The notes beneath the pieces were generated by a model that made no database searches, was not told the DNA's origin, and saw only the letters and a program-made list of their open reading frames with translations. A stretch of 64,000 nucleotides of DNA, from positions 1 to 64,000 of the forward strand of contig NZ_VDUZ01000001.1 in the NCBI RefSeq assembly GCF_008039615.1, read 5' to 3'. Position 1 is the stretch's first letter; every line of letters starts with the position of its first letter. The stretch is from Vineibacter terrae (GTDB taxonomy: Bacteria; Pseudomonadota; Alphaproteobacteria; Reyranellales; Reyranellaceae). Positions 3,931 to 60,691 of the stretch are shown here, piece after piece. Position numbers and translations under genes: made by a program.

Positions 3931-4083
3931 CCAGTGCTGGGAATCGCAGGTTGCTGATACATCCGTCATCCCGAGCGCAGCGAGGGATCTCCCGCGTGGG
4001 ACGCACAGTGCGCCATTCGCGGGAGATCCCGCTGCGCTCGGGATGACGGTCGCGATCCACCTTCCACCGATTCCCAGCACTAG
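3931..4083. repeat. Composite palindromic repeat with outer GAATCG arms
   Basis: The inner core (3965-4047) runs GTCATCCCGAGCG to CGCTCGGGATGAC and includes the GGATCTCCCGCG / CGCGGGAGATCC stem. An outer layer pairs AGTGCTGGGAATCG (left) with CGATTCCCAGCACT (right). The same outer layer is recognisable around 43590-43720 and 34056-34135. Confidence 0.9.
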
Positions 4084-5154: not shown

Positions 5155-5518
5155 ACGGAACACCGGCCGCTCGCTTGGGCCACGATACGTTCAGGCCAGG
5201 ACGAGGACAGCGATCAACAGCATCACGATCAACGGACCGCCCAGCATTCCGGCGTAGTCCGCCACCCCCAGGTCGGCAGGGCATTCGCATATGACCTCGC
5301 TGTCATCCCGAGCGCCCCCTTCGACAGGCTCAGGAGAGGGATCTCCTGCGGCAAGGCGCACGGTGCGCCATTCGCGGGAGATCCCTCGCTACGCTCGGGA
5401 TGACGGTAGGGGCATATGCGAATGCCCTGCCCAGGTCGGGGACGCCGGATCATCGCCAGACCTCCCCCCTGCCGAACGGTCCTCCGGCAGATTCTCGTGC
5501 GTCATGCGCATCCCCGTT
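5155..5518. other. Gene-poor gap with nested repeat and a possible 24-codon membrane ORF
   Basis: Mostly repeat (5276-5430). On the minus strand 5265-5191 encodes a 24-residue peptide from a GTG start, with one long hydrophobic stretch (MLGGPLIVMLLIAVLVLA). It could be a tiny membrane protein, but a good ribosome binding site is not evident, so it is not called as a gene. Confidence 0.4.
5276..5430. repeat. Two-shell nested palindromic repeat
   Basis: The outer shell is a perfect 18-bp inverted pair, GCAGGGCATTCGCATATG at 5276-5293 and its complement at 5413-5430. The inner shell is the common GTCATCCCGAGCG / CGCTCGGGATGAC element at 5302-5404. The left inner arm carries an insert with TTCGACAGGCTCAGGAGA, absent from the right arm. 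Confidence 0.92.
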
Positions 5519-18200: not shown

Positions 18201-19283
18201 CTACACGAAGAACACCCGCTGCACGAACCAGAAGGTCCCCATCGCCGCGACCAGCACCGAGGCGAGCTGCGGCAGGCGGCGCAGGGCCGGCGGCCGGCTG
18301 GCCCACGCCAGCAGCGGCAGGAACACGGCGATGAACGCCACCTGCCCCAGCTCCAGCCCGGCATTGAAGCCAACCAGCGCTCTTGCCAGCGCGGCGCCGT
18401 CGAGGTGCAGCTCGGCGAGCGCGCCGGCGAAGCCCAGCCCATGCACCAGGCCGAAGCCGAAGGCCACCAGCCAGCGCCGCCACGCGCGGCCCGGCGATAT
18501 CAGGTTCTCCACCGCCACCCAGACGATCGAGGCGGCGATCAGCGGCTCGACGATCCGGCCCGGCGCCGCCAGCAACCCGAGCGCCGCCAGGCTCAGCGTG
18601 ATGCTGTGCGCCACGGTGAAGGCGGTGACGATCTTCACCACGCCCCAGAAGCAGCGGGTGTGCGCCAGCAGCGCGACCAGGAACAGCAGGTGATCGATGC
18701 CGCCGAGAATATGCTCGATGCCGAGCCAGACGAAGTCGGCCCAGCCGGCGCGCGCCGGCGCGGCGCCCGCAACCTCGACCGTGATCGTGCGCTGCCCTTC
18801 GCCCAGGATGCGCTCCTGGCTGGCCCCGGCGGCGCGGATCGAGAGGATCGTCTGATAATGCTCGCCGAACAGCGTGCGCCAGTCCTCGCGGATCGTCAGG
18901 CGGCGTGGCGGCGCCTGGCATGCCAGCGCCAGCTCGAGCTGCACCTTGCCGTCGCCGGCGCGCGTGCCCTGGAAGCGGATGCGGCCGGGCCGGCAAGGTG
19001 TGCCGTCAGCCTCGATCGTGATCGCCTCGCGCATGGCCTCGGCCAGGGCCTGGGCCATCGGCGGGTCGCCGTCGGCGGCCGCCGACAGCAGCCGCCCGCC
19101 GGCCTCGGGCATTTCCGGGGCGACGACGTCGAGCACATAGGTCAGGCGCTCGCCCTCGACCGACAATGTCGCCAGCCCGGTGCTGGTGACATGGGCGCCA
19201 GCCGGCGCGGCCACGAGCAGCCCGAGGACGAGGGTGAGCAGAACGCATGATCGCGCTGCAGCACCCCGGAGCCCCGGTGTCAT
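18201..19283 (-). CDS. HupE/UreJ-like membrane protein
   Basis: 360 aa. A signal segment (VLLTLVLGLLVAAPAGAHV) leads a periplasmic domain of about 170 residues, followed by six or so membrane helices starting WADFVWLGIEHILGGIDHLLFLVALL. The HILGGIDHLLF, AFTVAHSITLSLAALG and GFGLVHGLGFAGAL blocks, with their conserved histidines, are characteristic of the HupE/UreJ_2 family. These are possible metal or small-molecule permeases. The only suitable ATG (19283) is the end of a palindromic repeat (GGGATGAC), so the repeat seems to supply the start codon; a further upstream start would translate the repeat itself. Confidence 0.82.
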   Translation of the reverse strand: MTPGLRGAAARSCVLLTLVLGLLVAAPAGAHVTSTGLATLSVEGERLTYVLDVVAPEMPEAGGRLLSAAADGDPPMAQALAEAMREAITIEADGTPCRPGRIRFQGTRAGDGKVQLELALACQAPPRRLTIREDWRTLFGEHYQTILSIRAAGASQERILGEGQRTITVEVAGAAPARAGWADFVWLGIEHILGGIDHLLFLVALLAHTRCFWGVVKIVTAFTVAHSITLSLAALGLLAAPGRIVEPLIAASIVWVAVENLISPGRAWRRWLVAFGFGLVHGLGFAGALAELHLDGAALARALVGFNAGLELGQVAFIAVFLPLLAWASRPPALRRLPQLASVLVAAMGTFWFVQRVFFV

Positions 19284-19364
19284 CCCGAGCGCAGCGAGGG
19301 ATCTCCCGCGGCCCGGCGCGCCATGCGCCATCGGAGGGAGATCCCTCGCCGCGCTCGGGATGAC
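19279..19364. repeat. Dispersed palindromic repeat (common family)
   Basis: GTCATCCCGAGCG to CGCTCGGGATGAC, 86 bp; its left end overlaps the predicted start of the HupE-like gene. Confidence 0.9.
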
Positions 19365-34178: not shown

Positions 34179-35768
34179 CTACAGGACCGGCGGCACGAAG
34201 CCGCCCCACGCCTGCTCCAGCAGCTGCGCGAACTGGATCGGCGTCGCATCCTCGAGGTAGGGCCCGATGATCTGCACGCCGATCGGCAGGCCGGTCGGCG
34301 TGCGGTCGATCGGCGCCACGCTTGCCGGCAGGCCGGCCGCGGTGGCGGGGCCAGCCCAGACGATGTTATTCGTGTAGGGCTGCGCCTGGCCGTCGACGTC
34401 GAGGCGGCGGGCGGACACTTCGGCATGATCGTGCGGGAAGGCCGCGGTCGGCATCGGCGGGCAGAGCACCACGTCGAATGTCTTGAACAGCGTCGCCCAT
34501 TGCTGCTGCTGCACGGTGCGGGCGCGACCGGCAGCCTGCCAATCGCGCCAGCCGATATTGGCGCCGCGGACATAGATGGCATCCAGGCTCTGGTTGTCGG
34601 CGCCCATCGACGCCGCGAGCGCACGCATCTGCTCGTAGTACGCCGGCGGCCGGCCCGCGGTCAGGACCGGGCCGAGCAGGCGCATATAGGTGCGCGTCGC
34701 CTCGGCGAGGTCGGGCAGCAGCGGGCTTTGCCGCAGAACGGTGGCGCCCTCCTTGTCGAGGCGGCCGGCCAGCCGCGCCAGCGCCGTGCGGATCGCCTCG
34801 GCGGTGGGGCAGAGCGGATGGGTGTCGATCACCAGCACCCTGAAGTCGCGCAGCACGCGATGCCGCGGCCGCGGCAGGACCAGGCGCCAGCCGACGCCGT
34901 CGCGCTGCTCGTCCGGCCCGGCGACGATGTCCAGCGCAAGCGCCAGGTCCTGCGCGCTGCGCGCCATCGGCCCCACGACCGACAGCCCGTCGCCGGCCGA
35001 TGGGATCGCCGGCGCGCCCGGGAAGGTCTGGCCGCGCGAAGGCACGATGCCGTAGCTCGGCTTGTGGGCGAACACGCCGCAGTAATGCGCCGGCGTGCGC
35101 AGCGAGCCGCCGATATCCGAGCCCATCTCGAGCGCGACATAGCCTGCCGCCAGCGCCGCCGCGGCGCCGCCCGACGAGCCGCCCGGCGTGCGGGCAATGT
35201 CGTAGGGATTGTTGGTGGTGCCATAGACGGGGTTGGTGCTCTGCCAGTCGGCCAGCGCCACCGGCACGTTGGTCTTGCCCATGATCACGGCGCCGGCTGC
35301 CTTCAGCCGCTGCACCACGACGGCATCCTCCGTCGGCCGCCAGTCCTTGAAGGATGGGAAGCCCCAGGTCGTGGGCAGCCCGGCGATGTTGTAGGACTCC
35401 TTGACCGTCATCGGCAGGCCCAGCAGCGGCCGGCGCTCGCCGCGCGCCAGCGCCTGGTCGGCCGCGACAGCCGCCTGCCGTGCCCGGTCGAAGTCGCGCA
35501 CCACGACGGCGTTGATGTGCTTGTCGAGCCCCTCGATGCGGGCGATGGCCTGGTCGAGCAGCTCGACCGCCGAGACACGGCGCGCCGCGAGATCGGCCAC
35601 GAGATCGTGCGCCGTGCGGTACCACTTGCCGCCCTCGGGCGCCGGTACCACCGCGGCGATCTGCCCGAAGCCGCGTGTCGCTGGAAGCGTGCACGCCGCC
35701 GCTGCGGCGCCTGCCAGGAATGCCCGGCGGCCGGCCGCGCCAGCCTGCCTGACCGAAGACCTGTCCAT
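34179..35768 (-). CDS. Tat-exported amidase (amidase-signature family)
   Basis: 529 aa. Twin-arginine-like signal (GRRAFLAGAAAAACTLPATRG). Catalytic triad of the amidase-signature fold: Lys in LPMTVKESYN, cis-Ser in TPGGSSGGAAAAL, nucleophile Ser in MGSDIGGSLRTPA. The AIYVRGANIG and CPPMPTAAFPHDH segments are variable substrate-pocket parts. Homologous in fold to GatA (60703-62172) but periplasmic, so more likely a catabolic amidase. Transcribed toward the CobW gene; stops about 130 bp apart. Confidence 0.9.
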   Translation of the reverse strand: MDRSSVRQAGAAGRRAFLAGAAAAACTLPATRGFGQIAAVVPAPEGGKWYRTAHDLVADLAARRVSAVELLDQAIARIEGLDKHINAVVVRDFDRARQAAVAADQALARGERRPLLGLPMTVKESYNIAGLPTTWGFPSFKDWRPTEDAVVVQRLKAAGAVIMGKTNVPVALADWQSTNPVYGTTNNPYDIARTPGGSSGGAAAALAAGYVALEMGSDIGGSLRTPAHYCGVFAHKPSYGIVPSRGQTFPGAPAIPSAGDGLSVVGPMARSAQDLALALDIVAGPDEQRDGVGWRLVLPRPRHRVLRDFRVLVIDTHPLCPTAEAIRTALARLAGRLDKEGATVLRQSPLLPDLAEATRTYMRLLGPVLTAGRPPAYYEQMRALAASMGADNQSLDAIYVRGANIGWRDWQAAGRARTVQQQQWATLFKTFDVVLCPPMPTAAFPHDHAEVSARRLDVDGQAQPYTNNIVWAGPATAAGLPASVAPIDRTPTGLPIGVQIIGPYLEDATPIQFAQLLEQAWGGFVPPVL

Positions 35769-36094
35769 CACAGTCTCCTCCCTTCGCCCTGCCCCGCCCG
35801 CAGCGTCACCCGCCTCCCGAGCGTGGCGAGGCGCGACAGTCCGACAGCGGCGCTGCGTTGGGAAGCACGAAATCACAGGCGCCCGCTCCGGCGCCTGGCG
35901 CCGGGTCAGGGTGCCGTCATCTTCCCGGCGTCCGCAGGGGATTCGCATATGGGAGCACCGGTGCCGTCTCCTCGCCCCGCGGCAGCGGGGCGAGGGGTGG
36001 ACGGCAGCATATGCGAATGCCCTGCCGGCGTCCGGGAGCTCCGGGTCTTGTCGAGCAGCGGCCTGGTCGGCGCATGGAGCCGGAGCGCCAGCCA
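35769..36094. other. Intergenic gap dominated by a palindromic repeat
   Basis: No gene supported. A shell of the CATTCGCATATG family (35934-36025) fills the middle. The rest is GC-rich with no recognisable coding. Confidence 0.6.
35934..36025. repeat. CATATG-shell repeat around a different hairpin
   Basis: Outer arms GCAGGGGATTCGCATATG (35934-35951) and CATATGCGAATGCCCTGC (36008-36025) pair with one mismatch. Inside is CTCGCCCCGC (35971-35980) with GCGGGGCGAG (35985-35994), not the common GTCATCCCG core. Confidence 0.88.
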
Positions 36095-37165
36095 CTACAC
36101 GCGTTGCGCCCGTGCGCGCCACGCGGCCGGCGAAGCGCCGGCAACCTTCTTGAACGTGCGGCTGAAGGCAGCCTCCGAAGCGTAGCCGACCTCGCGGCCG
36201 ACGGTGGCAACCTTCCCTGCGCCATCGGATAGCCGGCGCGCGGCCATCTGCATGCGCCACTGGGTCAGGTACTGCATCGGCGGGCACCCGACCAGATACG
36301 CAAAGCGATCGGCGAGCACCGACCGGGACGTTCCGGACGCTCGCGCCAGCCCATCCAGCGTCCAGGCGGAGGCGGGCCGCTCGTGCAGCAGCGCCAATGC
36401 CCGGCCGACCGCGGGGTCGCGCAGGCCCGCCAGCCAGCCGGGCGTGTCGCTCTTGATACCGGCGAGATAGCGCCGCAGGACCTCAACGAAGATCAGCTCG
36501 CTGAGGCCCAGGCGGACGCAGTCGCTGCCGGCCCGGGCGATGCGTGCTTCCGCGAGCGTCAGATCGATCAGCCGGTCCAGGACATCATCCTGCGCATCGC
36601 CGGATCGCTGCAGGTGCAGCAGCCTGGGCAAGGCGGCCAGCAGCGGGTTGAACGGGCGCGCATCGCAGCCCAGGAAGCCGCAGACGAAGCGGGCGTGCTC
36701 GGGACCGCCGCCCCCCTCCTCGACCACGAAGGGCAGCCGGCCGGCCGCCATCGCGCGCAGGAACGCCAGCGATGCCTCGGCCGTGAACTCCAGCGGTCCG
36801 CCCGGTCGGCTGACCATCGTGTAGGGATCGGCATGCGGGAAGACCAGGATGTCGCCGGCGCCGAACCGCACCGGCTCCAGCCCGGGCAGGCTGGCATAGC
36901 CGGATCCTGCCAACGCGATATGGTACGAGACGATGTGCTGCGCCCGCGGCAGGATGATCGGCCCGAACGTCGTCGCATGCGGCACTTCGATGCCCCACGG
37001 CGAGGTCGCCTCGACCAGGAAGAACAGGGCGCCGGTCAGCTTGACCGTCCGCACGACCTCCGACAGCACGTCCTTGCCTGCGCTGCCCGCATCCACCGGC
37101 GCGGACAGGCGTCGGCCGGACGGCACAGCAAGCGATCCGGACACCTGGTCATGGGGTCGAGCCAT
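36095..37165 (-). CDS. AraC-family regulator with cupin sensor domain
   Basis: 356 aa from ATG 37165 (an ATG at 37189 would add 8). The N-terminal cupin-type domain (residues ~40-200) contains HIVSYHIALAGSGYASL and GDILVFPHADPYTM. The C-terminal double helix-turn-helix (residues ~260-350) has WTLDGLARASGTSRSVLADRFAYLVGCPPMQYL and VGREVGYASEAAFSRTFKKVAGASPAAWR, textbook AraC. Divergent from the methyltransferase at 37237 (72 bp), which may be a target. Confidence 0.9.
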   Translation of the reverse strand: MARPHDQVSGSLAVPSGRRLSAPVDAGSAGKDVLSEVVRTVKLTGALFFLVEATSPWGIEVPHATTFGPIILPRAQHIVSYHIALAGSGYASLPGLEPVRFGAGDILVFPHADPYTMVSRPGGPLEFTAEASLAFLRAMAAGRLPFVVEEGGGGPEHARFVCGFLGCDARPFNPLLAALPRLLHLQRSGDAQDDVLDRLIDLTLAEARIARAGSDCVRLGLSELIFVEVLRRYLAGIKSDTPGWLAGLRDPAVGRALALLHERPASAWTLDGLARASGTSRSVLADRFAYLVGCPPMQYLTQWRMQMAARRLSDGAGKVATVGREVGYASEAAFSRTFKKVAGASPAAWRARAQRV

Positions 37166-39427: not shown

Positions 39428-39722
39428 GGCATTATCCTCCCTGAGCTTGTGCACGCACTCGAGTTCGTTCTGCTGGTTTTTGTGCAACGCTGCGTAAAGG
39501 CACTCGTGCCAGGCGATCCCTGAGGCCACGCCCCAACTCGTTCGTGTTCTATGTATTTCGGGCCTGTGGCTGCAGGCAGCGCCGCCCCGACTTCGACGGA
39601 GATTGGTCGGGCTGTCAACCCGCAGCGAACAAGCCGACGGCTACGATCAGGTCTATGTCAGCCTGGGACGCACCGCGAACGCGCACGGGTCCGCTCCCGC
39701 GCACGAGAGATCCCACGAGACC

Positions 39723-39967
39723 GCAGGGCGCTCGCATATGGGCTTTCGACTACCTTCCCCCGCCTGCGGCAGGGCATTCGCACATGACCTCGCTGTCATC
39801 CCGAGCGCCAGCGAGGGATCTCCTGCGGCAAGGCGCACGGTGCGCAATTCGCGGGAGATCCCTCGCTACGCTCGGGATGACGGTAGGGGCATATGCGAAT
39901 GCCCTGCCCCGCAAGCGGGGGGAGGTAGTCGAAAACCGACGCTCCCGCTCATATGCGATCGCCCTGC
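39723..39967. repeat. Four-shell nested palindromic repeat
   Basis: Shells from outside in: GCAGGGCGCTCGCATATG (39723-39740) with 39950-39967; TCGACTACC...CCCCCGC (about 39744-39763) with GCGGGG...GGTAGTCGA (39915-39934); GCAGGGCATTCGCACATG (39769-39786) with 39890-39907; and the common core GTCATCCCGAGCG (from 39795) with CGCTCGGGATGAC (to 39881). Every layer is an inverted pair centred on the same point. Confidence 0.93.
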
Positions 39968-40027
39968 ATGCGACCGGGCTGCCGTGGGCACGGCCGGCGC
40001 GCGCCGGCCATGAGCAGGTGCTGCCGC

Positions 40028-41691: not shown

Positions 41692-41793
41692 GTCATCCCG
41701 AGCGCAGCGAGGGATCTCCTGCGAATTGCGCACGGTGCGTCTTCCCGCAGGAGATCCCTCTCCTGAGCTTGTCGAAGGGGCGCTCGGGATGAC
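41692..41793. repeat. Dispersed repeat, right arm with TCGACAAG-type insert
   Basis: Common family, but the right arm carries CTCCTGAGCTTGTCGAAG between the inner stem and CGCTCGGGATGAC. This mirrors the left-arm insert in the copy at 5302-5404. Confidence 0.88.
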
Positions 41794-43207: not shown

Positions 43208-43892
43208 AGCGGGACGCCGCCTCGCGCGTGGTCGGCACCTTCATCCTGCTGTTGGGTCTGACGATTCTTGGTCCCGGGCCATTCAGTCACGTGTAGACCT
43301 CAGCGCCGTATGACGAATCATGGATCGACGGCGGCATGTTGAAGAAGACATACGTTGGCTCCGCTGGCATGGCAGGCGGGAGCGCGAATCTGTCTCTCGC
43401 TCACCGGTGCCTGGGACATGCCTCTTGCGAATGATGGCGCCCTTTAGCGCAAGCCTCTGGAGGGTCAGCCAGTGCCAATCCTTGCACCATAATTCGGCGC
43501 TCCGCGCACTCACTTTCATGGATCGCGTCTGATTCGAACATTCCTGGATGTTGACCTGTGCGACAAACTAGTGCCTCGAATCACTGATCGCTGATACATC
43601 TGTCATCCCGAGCGCAGCGAGGGATCTCCTGCGCGGGACGCACGGTGCGCCATTCGCGGGAGATCCCTCGCTGCGCTCGGGATGACGGCAGCAACTCACC
43701 TTTCATCGATAGCCGGTACTGGGCTGGCTCCAAGCCTTCGGCGAAGGCAACACCGTAGAACCGCGCTCCCGCTGCGGCCCCCGCCTGAACATCCGCGTAG
43801 CCTTCGCTCAAGCCGGCATCTTCCCGGGCAAACACGCACACGTGTCAATGCTCTCGTGCCGCGACGACGCAGCCGATGCCAACACCATTCGG
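43208..43892. other. Gap with repeat and possible gene relic
   Basis: Repeat at 43602-43686. On the minus strand 43840-43700 reads plausibly as protein (DAGLSEGYADVQAGAAAGARFYGVAFAEG), then runs into the repeat and has no clear start or end. This looks like a gene fragment truncated by the repeat. Nothing else is recognisable. Confidence 0.45.
43602..43686. repeat. Dispersed palindromic repeat (common family) with outer layer
   Basis: Typical core. The flanks GCTGATACATC (left) and CACCTTTCATCGAT (right) resemble the outer shell at 3931-4083. Confidence 0.88.
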
Positions 43893-60606: not shown

Positions 60607-60691
60607 GTCATCCCGAGCACAGCGAGGGATCTCCTGCGAGCGACGCACGGTGCGCCATTCGCGGGAGATCGCTCGCTGTGCTCGGGATGAC
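60607..60691. repeat. Dispersed palindromic repeat (common family)
   Basis: GTCATCCCGAGCA to TGCTCGGGATGAC; the base change in one arm is matched by a complementary change in the other. It lies just past gatA's stop. Confidence 0.9.

Follow-up and report, generated by a model that had tools for sequence, protein, structure and literature searches.

Concentric palindromes in Vineibacter terrae: a probable ISAs1-related MITE within an older copy of its own family

The four concentric palindromes at 39723-39967 of the window (the stretch of 64,000 nucleotides analysed here, positions 1 to 64,000 of contig NZ_VDUZ01000001.1 from the Vineibacter terrae assembly GCF_008039615.1) are read here, with a probability of roughly 0.85, as a copy of an ISAs1-related MITE (inner, A-type) located within an older, B-type copy (outer) from its own family. 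An earlier sequence-only reading had drawn attention to four inverted arm pairs, or shells, and had proposed that elements insert repeatedly into the middle of older copies, in stepwise growth. The four arm pairs are present in the sequence, at or near where they had been placed, and they do come from different repeat families, though the REP-like ones lie within a MITE. Four insertion events are ruled out: shells 1 and 3 are terminal inverted repeats (TIRs), whereas shells 2 and 4 are the interior cargo of the outer and the inner element, respectively, so that two insertion units are present and not four.

Organisation of the focal locus

Shell 1 (39723-39740 and 39950-39967) and shell 3 (39769-39786 and 39890-39907) are the 17-bp TIRs of a MITE family scattered through the genome; their sequence is CAGGGCATTCGCATATG or a variant of it. 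The elements proper begin and end one base inward (CAGGG...CCCTG), the outermost base being part of the target duplication. The parts of the locus are the following.

39714-39723, no strand: left copy of the outer element's target duplication, CACGAGACCG, with 8/10 bases equal to the right copy
39724-39966, no strand: outer MITE, 243 bp with the inner element counted in, interior of type B, ends CAGGGCGCTCGCATATG and CATATGCGATCGCCCTG, assigned from the TIR pair and the duplication
39744-39763, + strand: shell 2, left arm of the palindromic cargo of the outer element, TTTCGACTACCTTCCCCCGC, read from the sequence; the arm also occurs in other B-type copies
39760-39769, no strand: CCGCCTGCGG, bordering the inner element on its left and lying at the tip of hairpin 1 in the B-type cargo, with 4/10 bases equal to the right flank
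39770-39906, no strand: inner MITE, A-type, 137 bp, ends CAGGGCATTCGCACATG and CATATGCGAATGCCCTG, assigned from the TIR pair
39795-39881, no strand: shell 4 core, GTCATCCCGAGCG...CGCTCGGGATGAC, REP-like head-to-head palindrome inside the inner MITE
39907-39916, no strand: CCCCGCAAGC, bordering the inner element on its right and belonging to hairpin 2 in the B-type cargo
39915-39934, + strand: shell 2, right arm of the palindromic cargo of the outer element, the reverse complement of TTTCGACTACCTTCCCCCGC with one mismatch
39967-39976, no strand: right copy of the outer element's target duplication, CATGCGACCG, from flank comparison

The inner element is thus located between hairpin 1 and hairpin 2 of the outer cargo. 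It matches an A-type copy elsewhere in the genome (C26:10379) at 98%, and the arms of the outer MITE match three B-type copies (C15:89435, C56:20036 and C31:26710) at 89-97%. The left outer arm corresponds to positions 1-46, and the right one to 160-218, of a 218-bp B-type copy, so about 113 bp of the outer element are absent from the focal locus. Prediction of the single-strand folding, which had been proposed as a check, gave a single long hairpin: folded as DNA, the 245-nt focal strand reaches -116.7 kcal/mol, compared with -53.0 (sd 3.5) for 200 shuffles (z = -18.2). An Rfam search of the window gave 0 matches.

A dispersed MITE family with 10-bp target duplications

With up to 3 mismatches allowed, the TIR is matched 8 times in the window (shuffled mean 0.07, largest 2), and 160 ends at up to 2 mismatches were found in the 8.76-Mb genome of V. 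terrae, where the reversed-pattern control gave 0. Elements were analysed in a sample of 78 merged intervals (777,790 bp) chosen around TIR hits, which is therefore enriched, its densities not being genome averages. The sample holds 186 ends, of which 128 form 64 paired elements; the 58 unpaired ends were excluded from the duplication counts. The paired elements measure 68-383 bp, which is short for a transposase, and even the shortest, of 68 bp, still has an interior.

Perfect 10-bp target duplications flank 21/64 paired elements (300 shuffles: mean 0.7, maximum 4), and duplications at 9/10 or better flank 33/64 (1000 shuffles: mean 1.4, maximum 7), while the flanks of 25/64 agree at fewer than 8/10 bases. 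The other lengths tried, 6 to 13, gave a single perfect match among the 64 elements, at 11. A duplication of 8 bp with GCAGGG ends was dropped, as 21/23 perfect 8-mers extend to 10 bp with CAGGG ends.

Two further copies in the window stand alone. The occurrence of shells 3 and 4 together at 5276-5430, and that of a CATATG shell alone at 35934-36025, had both been pointed out before and were confirmed in the sequence; each corresponds to a MITE between perfect duplications:

5277-5429, no strand: stand-alone A-type MITE, 153 bp, with CCCAGGTCGG on both sides (5267-5276 and 5430-5439), a 10/10 duplication
35935-36024, no strand: stand-alone C-type MITE, 90 bp, with CCGGCGTCCG on both sides (35925-35934 and 36025-36034), a 10/10 duplication

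The MITE at 35935-36024 sits in an amidase reading frame (34179-36287), in the stretch upstream of the Pfam domain, which begins at residue 242; this stretch may be non-coding. Elsewhere in the genome (G000), the end of contig C8 (C8:220133-end) and the start of contig C6 (C6:1-177) are parts of a C-type MITE with a common flanking 10-mer, CTGAGCTACG, and these contigs therefore probably join. A pattern scan of contigs from other genomes, in a set that may omit records of V. terrae or of very near genomes, gave three single matches in other organisms, none with a matching partner end, and these are taken as chance.

Link to an ISAs1-family transposase

ISAs1-family elements have inverted repeats of 14-22 bp starting with CAGGG, and an element of this family in Frankia makes a 10-bp duplication, as described in the accessible part of PMC11946415. 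The TIR of the 64 paired elements, of 17 bp and starting with CAGGG, falls in this range; the duplication has the same fixed length, 21 of the 64 being perfect; and a transposase gene is found between the same ends within the lineage. This gene belongs to an ISAs1-family copy in G007, a genome of another genus of the same family. The copy is 1179 bp long when its ends are set as in the first definition; it carries CAGGGGAATCGCATATG and CATATGCGATAACCCTG at its ends and is flanked on both sides by CCCCTCCGGG, i.e., it shows the same ends and 10-bp duplication as the MITEs. The G007 transposase is frameshifted and split over two frames, which score 237 bits (larger frame) and 70.2 bits against NCBIfam NF033564 (cut-off 70).

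In V. terrae itself, a C-terminal fragment of an ISAs1 transposase (94.5 bits) is located near the end of contig C16 and shares 51% identity over 94 residues with the G007 protein. Its stop codon lies inside the GCAGGGCTATCGCATTTG repeat, and the G007 frame likewise terminates inside its repeat; only one end is present, and the contig ends there. A PF13808 profile search of the V. terrae genome gave 0 matches, and among 40 relatives it matched 3 genomes at 4 places, with both ends nearby at one of them (G007). No intact transposase was found in the V. terrae genome or in the G007 copy; assembly breaks at repeats would be a likely explanation. The similarity between the ISAs1 and MITE ends is confined to the TIR, nothing longer being found. 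From these sequence comparisons, the MITE family is apparently moved by an ISAs1-type transposase, which would recognise the MITE ends in trans.

Cargo types and distribution in relatives

The same ends enclose unrelated interiors: type A with a GTCATCC core, type B with a CCTTCCCCC hairpin pair, type C with CTCGCCCCGC hairpins in two forms (about 235 bp and 90 bp), and type D. These labels come from short string rules, type A including subtypes A2-A4, and the assignment to type C may be wrong for two elements, of 137 and 171 bp. The D-type MITEs (G000:C22:125129-125486 and C11:124012) carry a different repeat, ACCACAGAGGCACAG. In the 153-bp A-type copies (window 5277-5429 and others) one core arm is 16 bp longer than in the 137-bp copies, owing to a stretch with CCTTCGACAGGCTCAGGA in place of a few bases, and the other arm is unchanged.

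Shell 4, a REP-like repeat, also exists outside the MITE. The sample holds 108 GTCATCC dimer cores, with a TIR on both sides in 41, on one side in 19 and on neither in 48, when a TIR is counted within 60 bp and duplicates are removed; these counts depend on the rule, another one giving 39 cores inside paired elements and 80 outside. By the latter rule, 81 left core arms in the sample are unpaired. Five of the 48 cores without TIRs lie in the window:

3965-4047, no strand: stand-alone GTCATCC core without TIRs
19279-19364, no strand: stand-alone GTCATCC core without TIRs
41692-41793, no strand: stand-alone GTCATCC core without TIRs
43602-43686, no strand: stand-alone GTCATCC core without TIRs
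60607-60691, no strand: stand-alone GTCATCC core without TIRs

The core pattern was found in 36/37 genomes of the family, in the single other genome of the order (1/1) and in 0/23 other genomes of the class. Of those 37 family genomes, 21 contain the TIR pattern, 12 of them with just one or two matches each, and it was found in 0/24 other genomes of the order and class. A pair of ends was obtained from 19 of 20 regions examined in the relatives. In genus g5 (G007 and G011), 6/12 pairs have perfect 10-bp duplications and 8/12 reach 9 or 10/10, and several of them lie inside CCTTCCC...GGGAAGG or CTCTCCC...GGGAGAG hairpins; among the pairs of other relatives (G003 five, G032 one, G035 one), 0/7 reach 9 or 10/10.

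These distributions bear on the possibility that the four shells form one fixed composite element spreading as a unit, as would be argued, in the words of the sequence-only reading, by all shells always occurring together. Shells 3 and 4 do move as one in the A-type element, to which the string rules assign 38/64 elements. However, the TIR surrounds several unrelated interiors, the core is often alone, and the two patterns differ in their occurrence among the family genomes; the stand-alone forms refute a fixed composite within the V. terrae genome itself, and we regard it as extremely improbable.

Could a REP-associated tyrosine transposase (RAYT) instead have built the whole structure by REP/BIME growth? 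CGTC-tagged REPs are mostly found in alphaproteobacteria, according to the accessible text of PMC3733652, and shell 4 resembles them: with few exceptions the base preceding GTC in the core is C or T, which gives the CGTC/TGTC tag. The CCA tail of CGTC-type REPs is absent, the half-core continuing as GGGATCTCC. The V. terrae genome has two Y1_Tnp genes, but the repeat does not flank them as in a REPIN/RAYT system: a search of the approximately 3.2 kb around each of them found GTCATCC once and GCAGGGC/GCCCTGC three times, never as part of a dimer or pair, so that only isolated end heptamers are found nearby. Furthermore, the TIR elements make 10-bp duplications, while the cores outside paired elements (a set that includes those with a TIR on one side) show none clearly above chance, and CGTC repeats are reported in PMC3733652 as not associated with transposase genes. 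A RAYT-driven origin of the whole structure is thus very unlikely.

Nested copies elsewhere in the genome

Three of the 64 paired elements contain another paired element: the focal one (C1:39724), C4:82068 and C31:63768, the outer element of the last being degenerate, with 2/10 flank bases and 3 mismatches in its left end. Four further candidate nests, in which one of the outer ends has been lost or has decayed, were recognised by inspection (C3:151757, C41:69114, C48:1384 and C75:7030).

The clearest case, G000:C4:82068-82302, shows that one element entered the middle of a copy already in place. Both its outer duplication, CGAAGCGTAG, and its inner duplication, GCGGCAGCGG, are 10/10, and the inner element occupies the tip of the outer one's hairpin. 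Removal of the inner element and of one duplication leaves 90 bp with 82/90 gapless identity to window 35935-36024, which is the paralogous empty form of this nest. The proposal that elements insert into the middle of older copies is therefore borne out on contig C4. Between the two paralogues (C1:35935-36024 and C4:82068-82302) the hairpin loop is reverse-complemented, GGCA versus TGCC, which suggests a loop inversion.

History of the focal nest

Stepwise insertion had also been proposed for the focal locus, and here a simple one-step event is not demonstrated, as the inner flanks agree at 4/10 bases and the outer ones at 8/10. Empty-site comparison, another suggested check, was made with the nearest relative found, which aligns up to window 39457 and not beyond; no orthologous empty site for 39723 could be aligned there. 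In the present reading, insertion of the inner copy at the focal locus was followed or accompanied by loss of the 113 bp or so of outer cargo.

The same junctions may have arisen by rearrangement, either from two copies inserted in the two hairpins of one B-type element with recombination between them, or by replication template-switching in the long quasi-palindrome, which would rewrite the flanks; we give this even odds. The inner flanks CCGCCTGCGG and CCCCGCAAGC correspond to hairpins 1 and 2 of fuller B-type copies, with the intervening 113 bp or so absent, and two insertions, one per hairpin, with subsequent recombination would yield the observed junctions without further changes, though no intermediate with two inner copies was seen. 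A second nest, C31:63887, has the same layout, and its flanks are exact 10-bp reverse complements. Moreover, inverted flanks at 7/8 or better occur in 5/24 elements with at most 5/8 direct matches, a number reached by 1/2000 within-group shuffles; exact 8/8 inverted flanks, however, occur in 2/24, which 164/2000 shuffles also reached. The loop inversion between paralogues points in the same direction, and template-switching in quasi-palindromes has been reported for E. coli (PMC7202029, in the part of the text available). On the other hand, palindromic targets alone favour inverted flanks (8/64 elements at 7/8; 500 shuffles: mean 1.7, maximum 7), and 3 of these 8 elements also have direct duplications. 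Flank inversion may be a real second process, the exact test being weak.

Target preference and hairpin tips

The MITE tends to target symmetrical C-rich/G-rich dyads, which are often the tips of DNA hairpins. At 35 sites with 8-mers matching at 7 or 8/8, the target columns are C-rich on the left and G-rich on the right, roughly CCC-N8-GGG; the strict pattern [CG]CC-N8-GG[CG] is present at 5/35 occupied sites. Stems of at least 7 pairs are found at 13/35 occupied sites compared with 16/221 look-alikes, i.e., strict-pattern sites located 40-430 bp from an element and outside elements (Fisher p = 1e-5, with the cut-off of 7 picked after a bimodal distribution was seen). Such stems occur at 7.0% of 3,416 strict-pattern sites in the sample and at 1.0% of random sites. 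With a cut-off of 5 pairs there is no difference (16/35 occupied versus 80/221 look-alikes, p = 0.35), and when the strict pattern is applied on both sides a long stem is present at 2/5 occupied sites versus 16/221 look-alikes (p = 0.05). A preference for hairpin tips beyond base composition thus has statistical support, subject to these caveats.

The same figures could reflect a preference for sequence together with purifying selection, whereby copies survive between genes, amid GC-rich terminators and REPs, and we put this at a little below an even chance. The target columns form a simple dyad, 22/35 occupied sites have no long stem, and the strict-motif comparison depends on 5 occupied sites; against this stands the excess of long stems over look-alikes taken from the same neighbourhoods. 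Around MITE insertion sites (G000:C29:104160-104520, C10:126251 and C71:38980) another long palindrome, GTGTGACTTAATCCTTCCCCC...GGGGGAAGGATTAAGTCACA, turns up repeatedly; it resembles a distinct REP family.

As the copies themselves carry hairpins, a later one can land inside an earlier one. Each MITE copy would bring a new hairpin, and the family would in this way make its own targets, with concentric palindromes as the outcome. A further-reaching proposal is that the transposase recognises the extruded hairpin, as a cruciform or single strand, that the concentric palindromes record a self-feeding amplification on targets generated by the MITE itself, and that flank inversion by template-switching is a second signature of it; this we consider speculative and rather unlikely. 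The growth pattern had been held not to follow from ordinary REP elements; a known kind suffices for it, namely a MITE with a target preference, together with REP-like cargo.

Comparison with known systems

The elements described here resemble the ISAs1 family and its derived MITEs in their CAGGG-starting TIR, in the 10-bp duplication (described for Frankia in the available portion of PMC11946415) and in the ISAs1 transposase found between the same ends. They differ in their length of 68-383 bp, in the REP-like cargo and in the preference for dyad-symmetric targets. Their core shares with the CGTC-tagged REPs, as far as these are described in the accessible portion of PMC3733652, the (C/T)GTC tag, A-T first stem pairs and a head-to-head dimer form, beside which unpaired arms also occur here; in this comparison by text description, it differs by its CTCC tail in place of CCA and by its additional presence within an ISAs1-type MITE.

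IS1397, ISKpn1, IS621, ISPpu9, ISRm22 and others are known to insert into repetitive extragenic palindromes, and the families named for this are IS3, IS110, IS4, IS256 and IS5 (PMC1525189, accessible part). Our elements share this behaviour, with the difference that the inserted unit is a MITE which itself carries such palindromes. ISAs1 is not among these five families, and the word is absent from the accessible text of PMC1525189. Similarly, a word search of the available part of a review of prokaryotic MITEs (PMC10969869) found neither 'nested' nor 'ISAs1' as a whole word. Among the matches listed from the open-licence literature, with most subscription journals outside it, no report was found of an ISAs1-derived MITE in REP tips.

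With the present elements, ISAs1 is added to the families seen in REP-like hairpins, and REP-like palindromes are shown travelling as cargo of a classical MITE. The Russian-doll palindrome becomes a readable insertion history.

IS231A inserts into a dyad-symmetric G/C target flanking its duplication. The symmetric G/C-rich target is common to IS231A and to our elements, the family and the duplication length being different, and the system described here lends itself naturally to testing whether it is DNA structure or sequence that a transposase selects.
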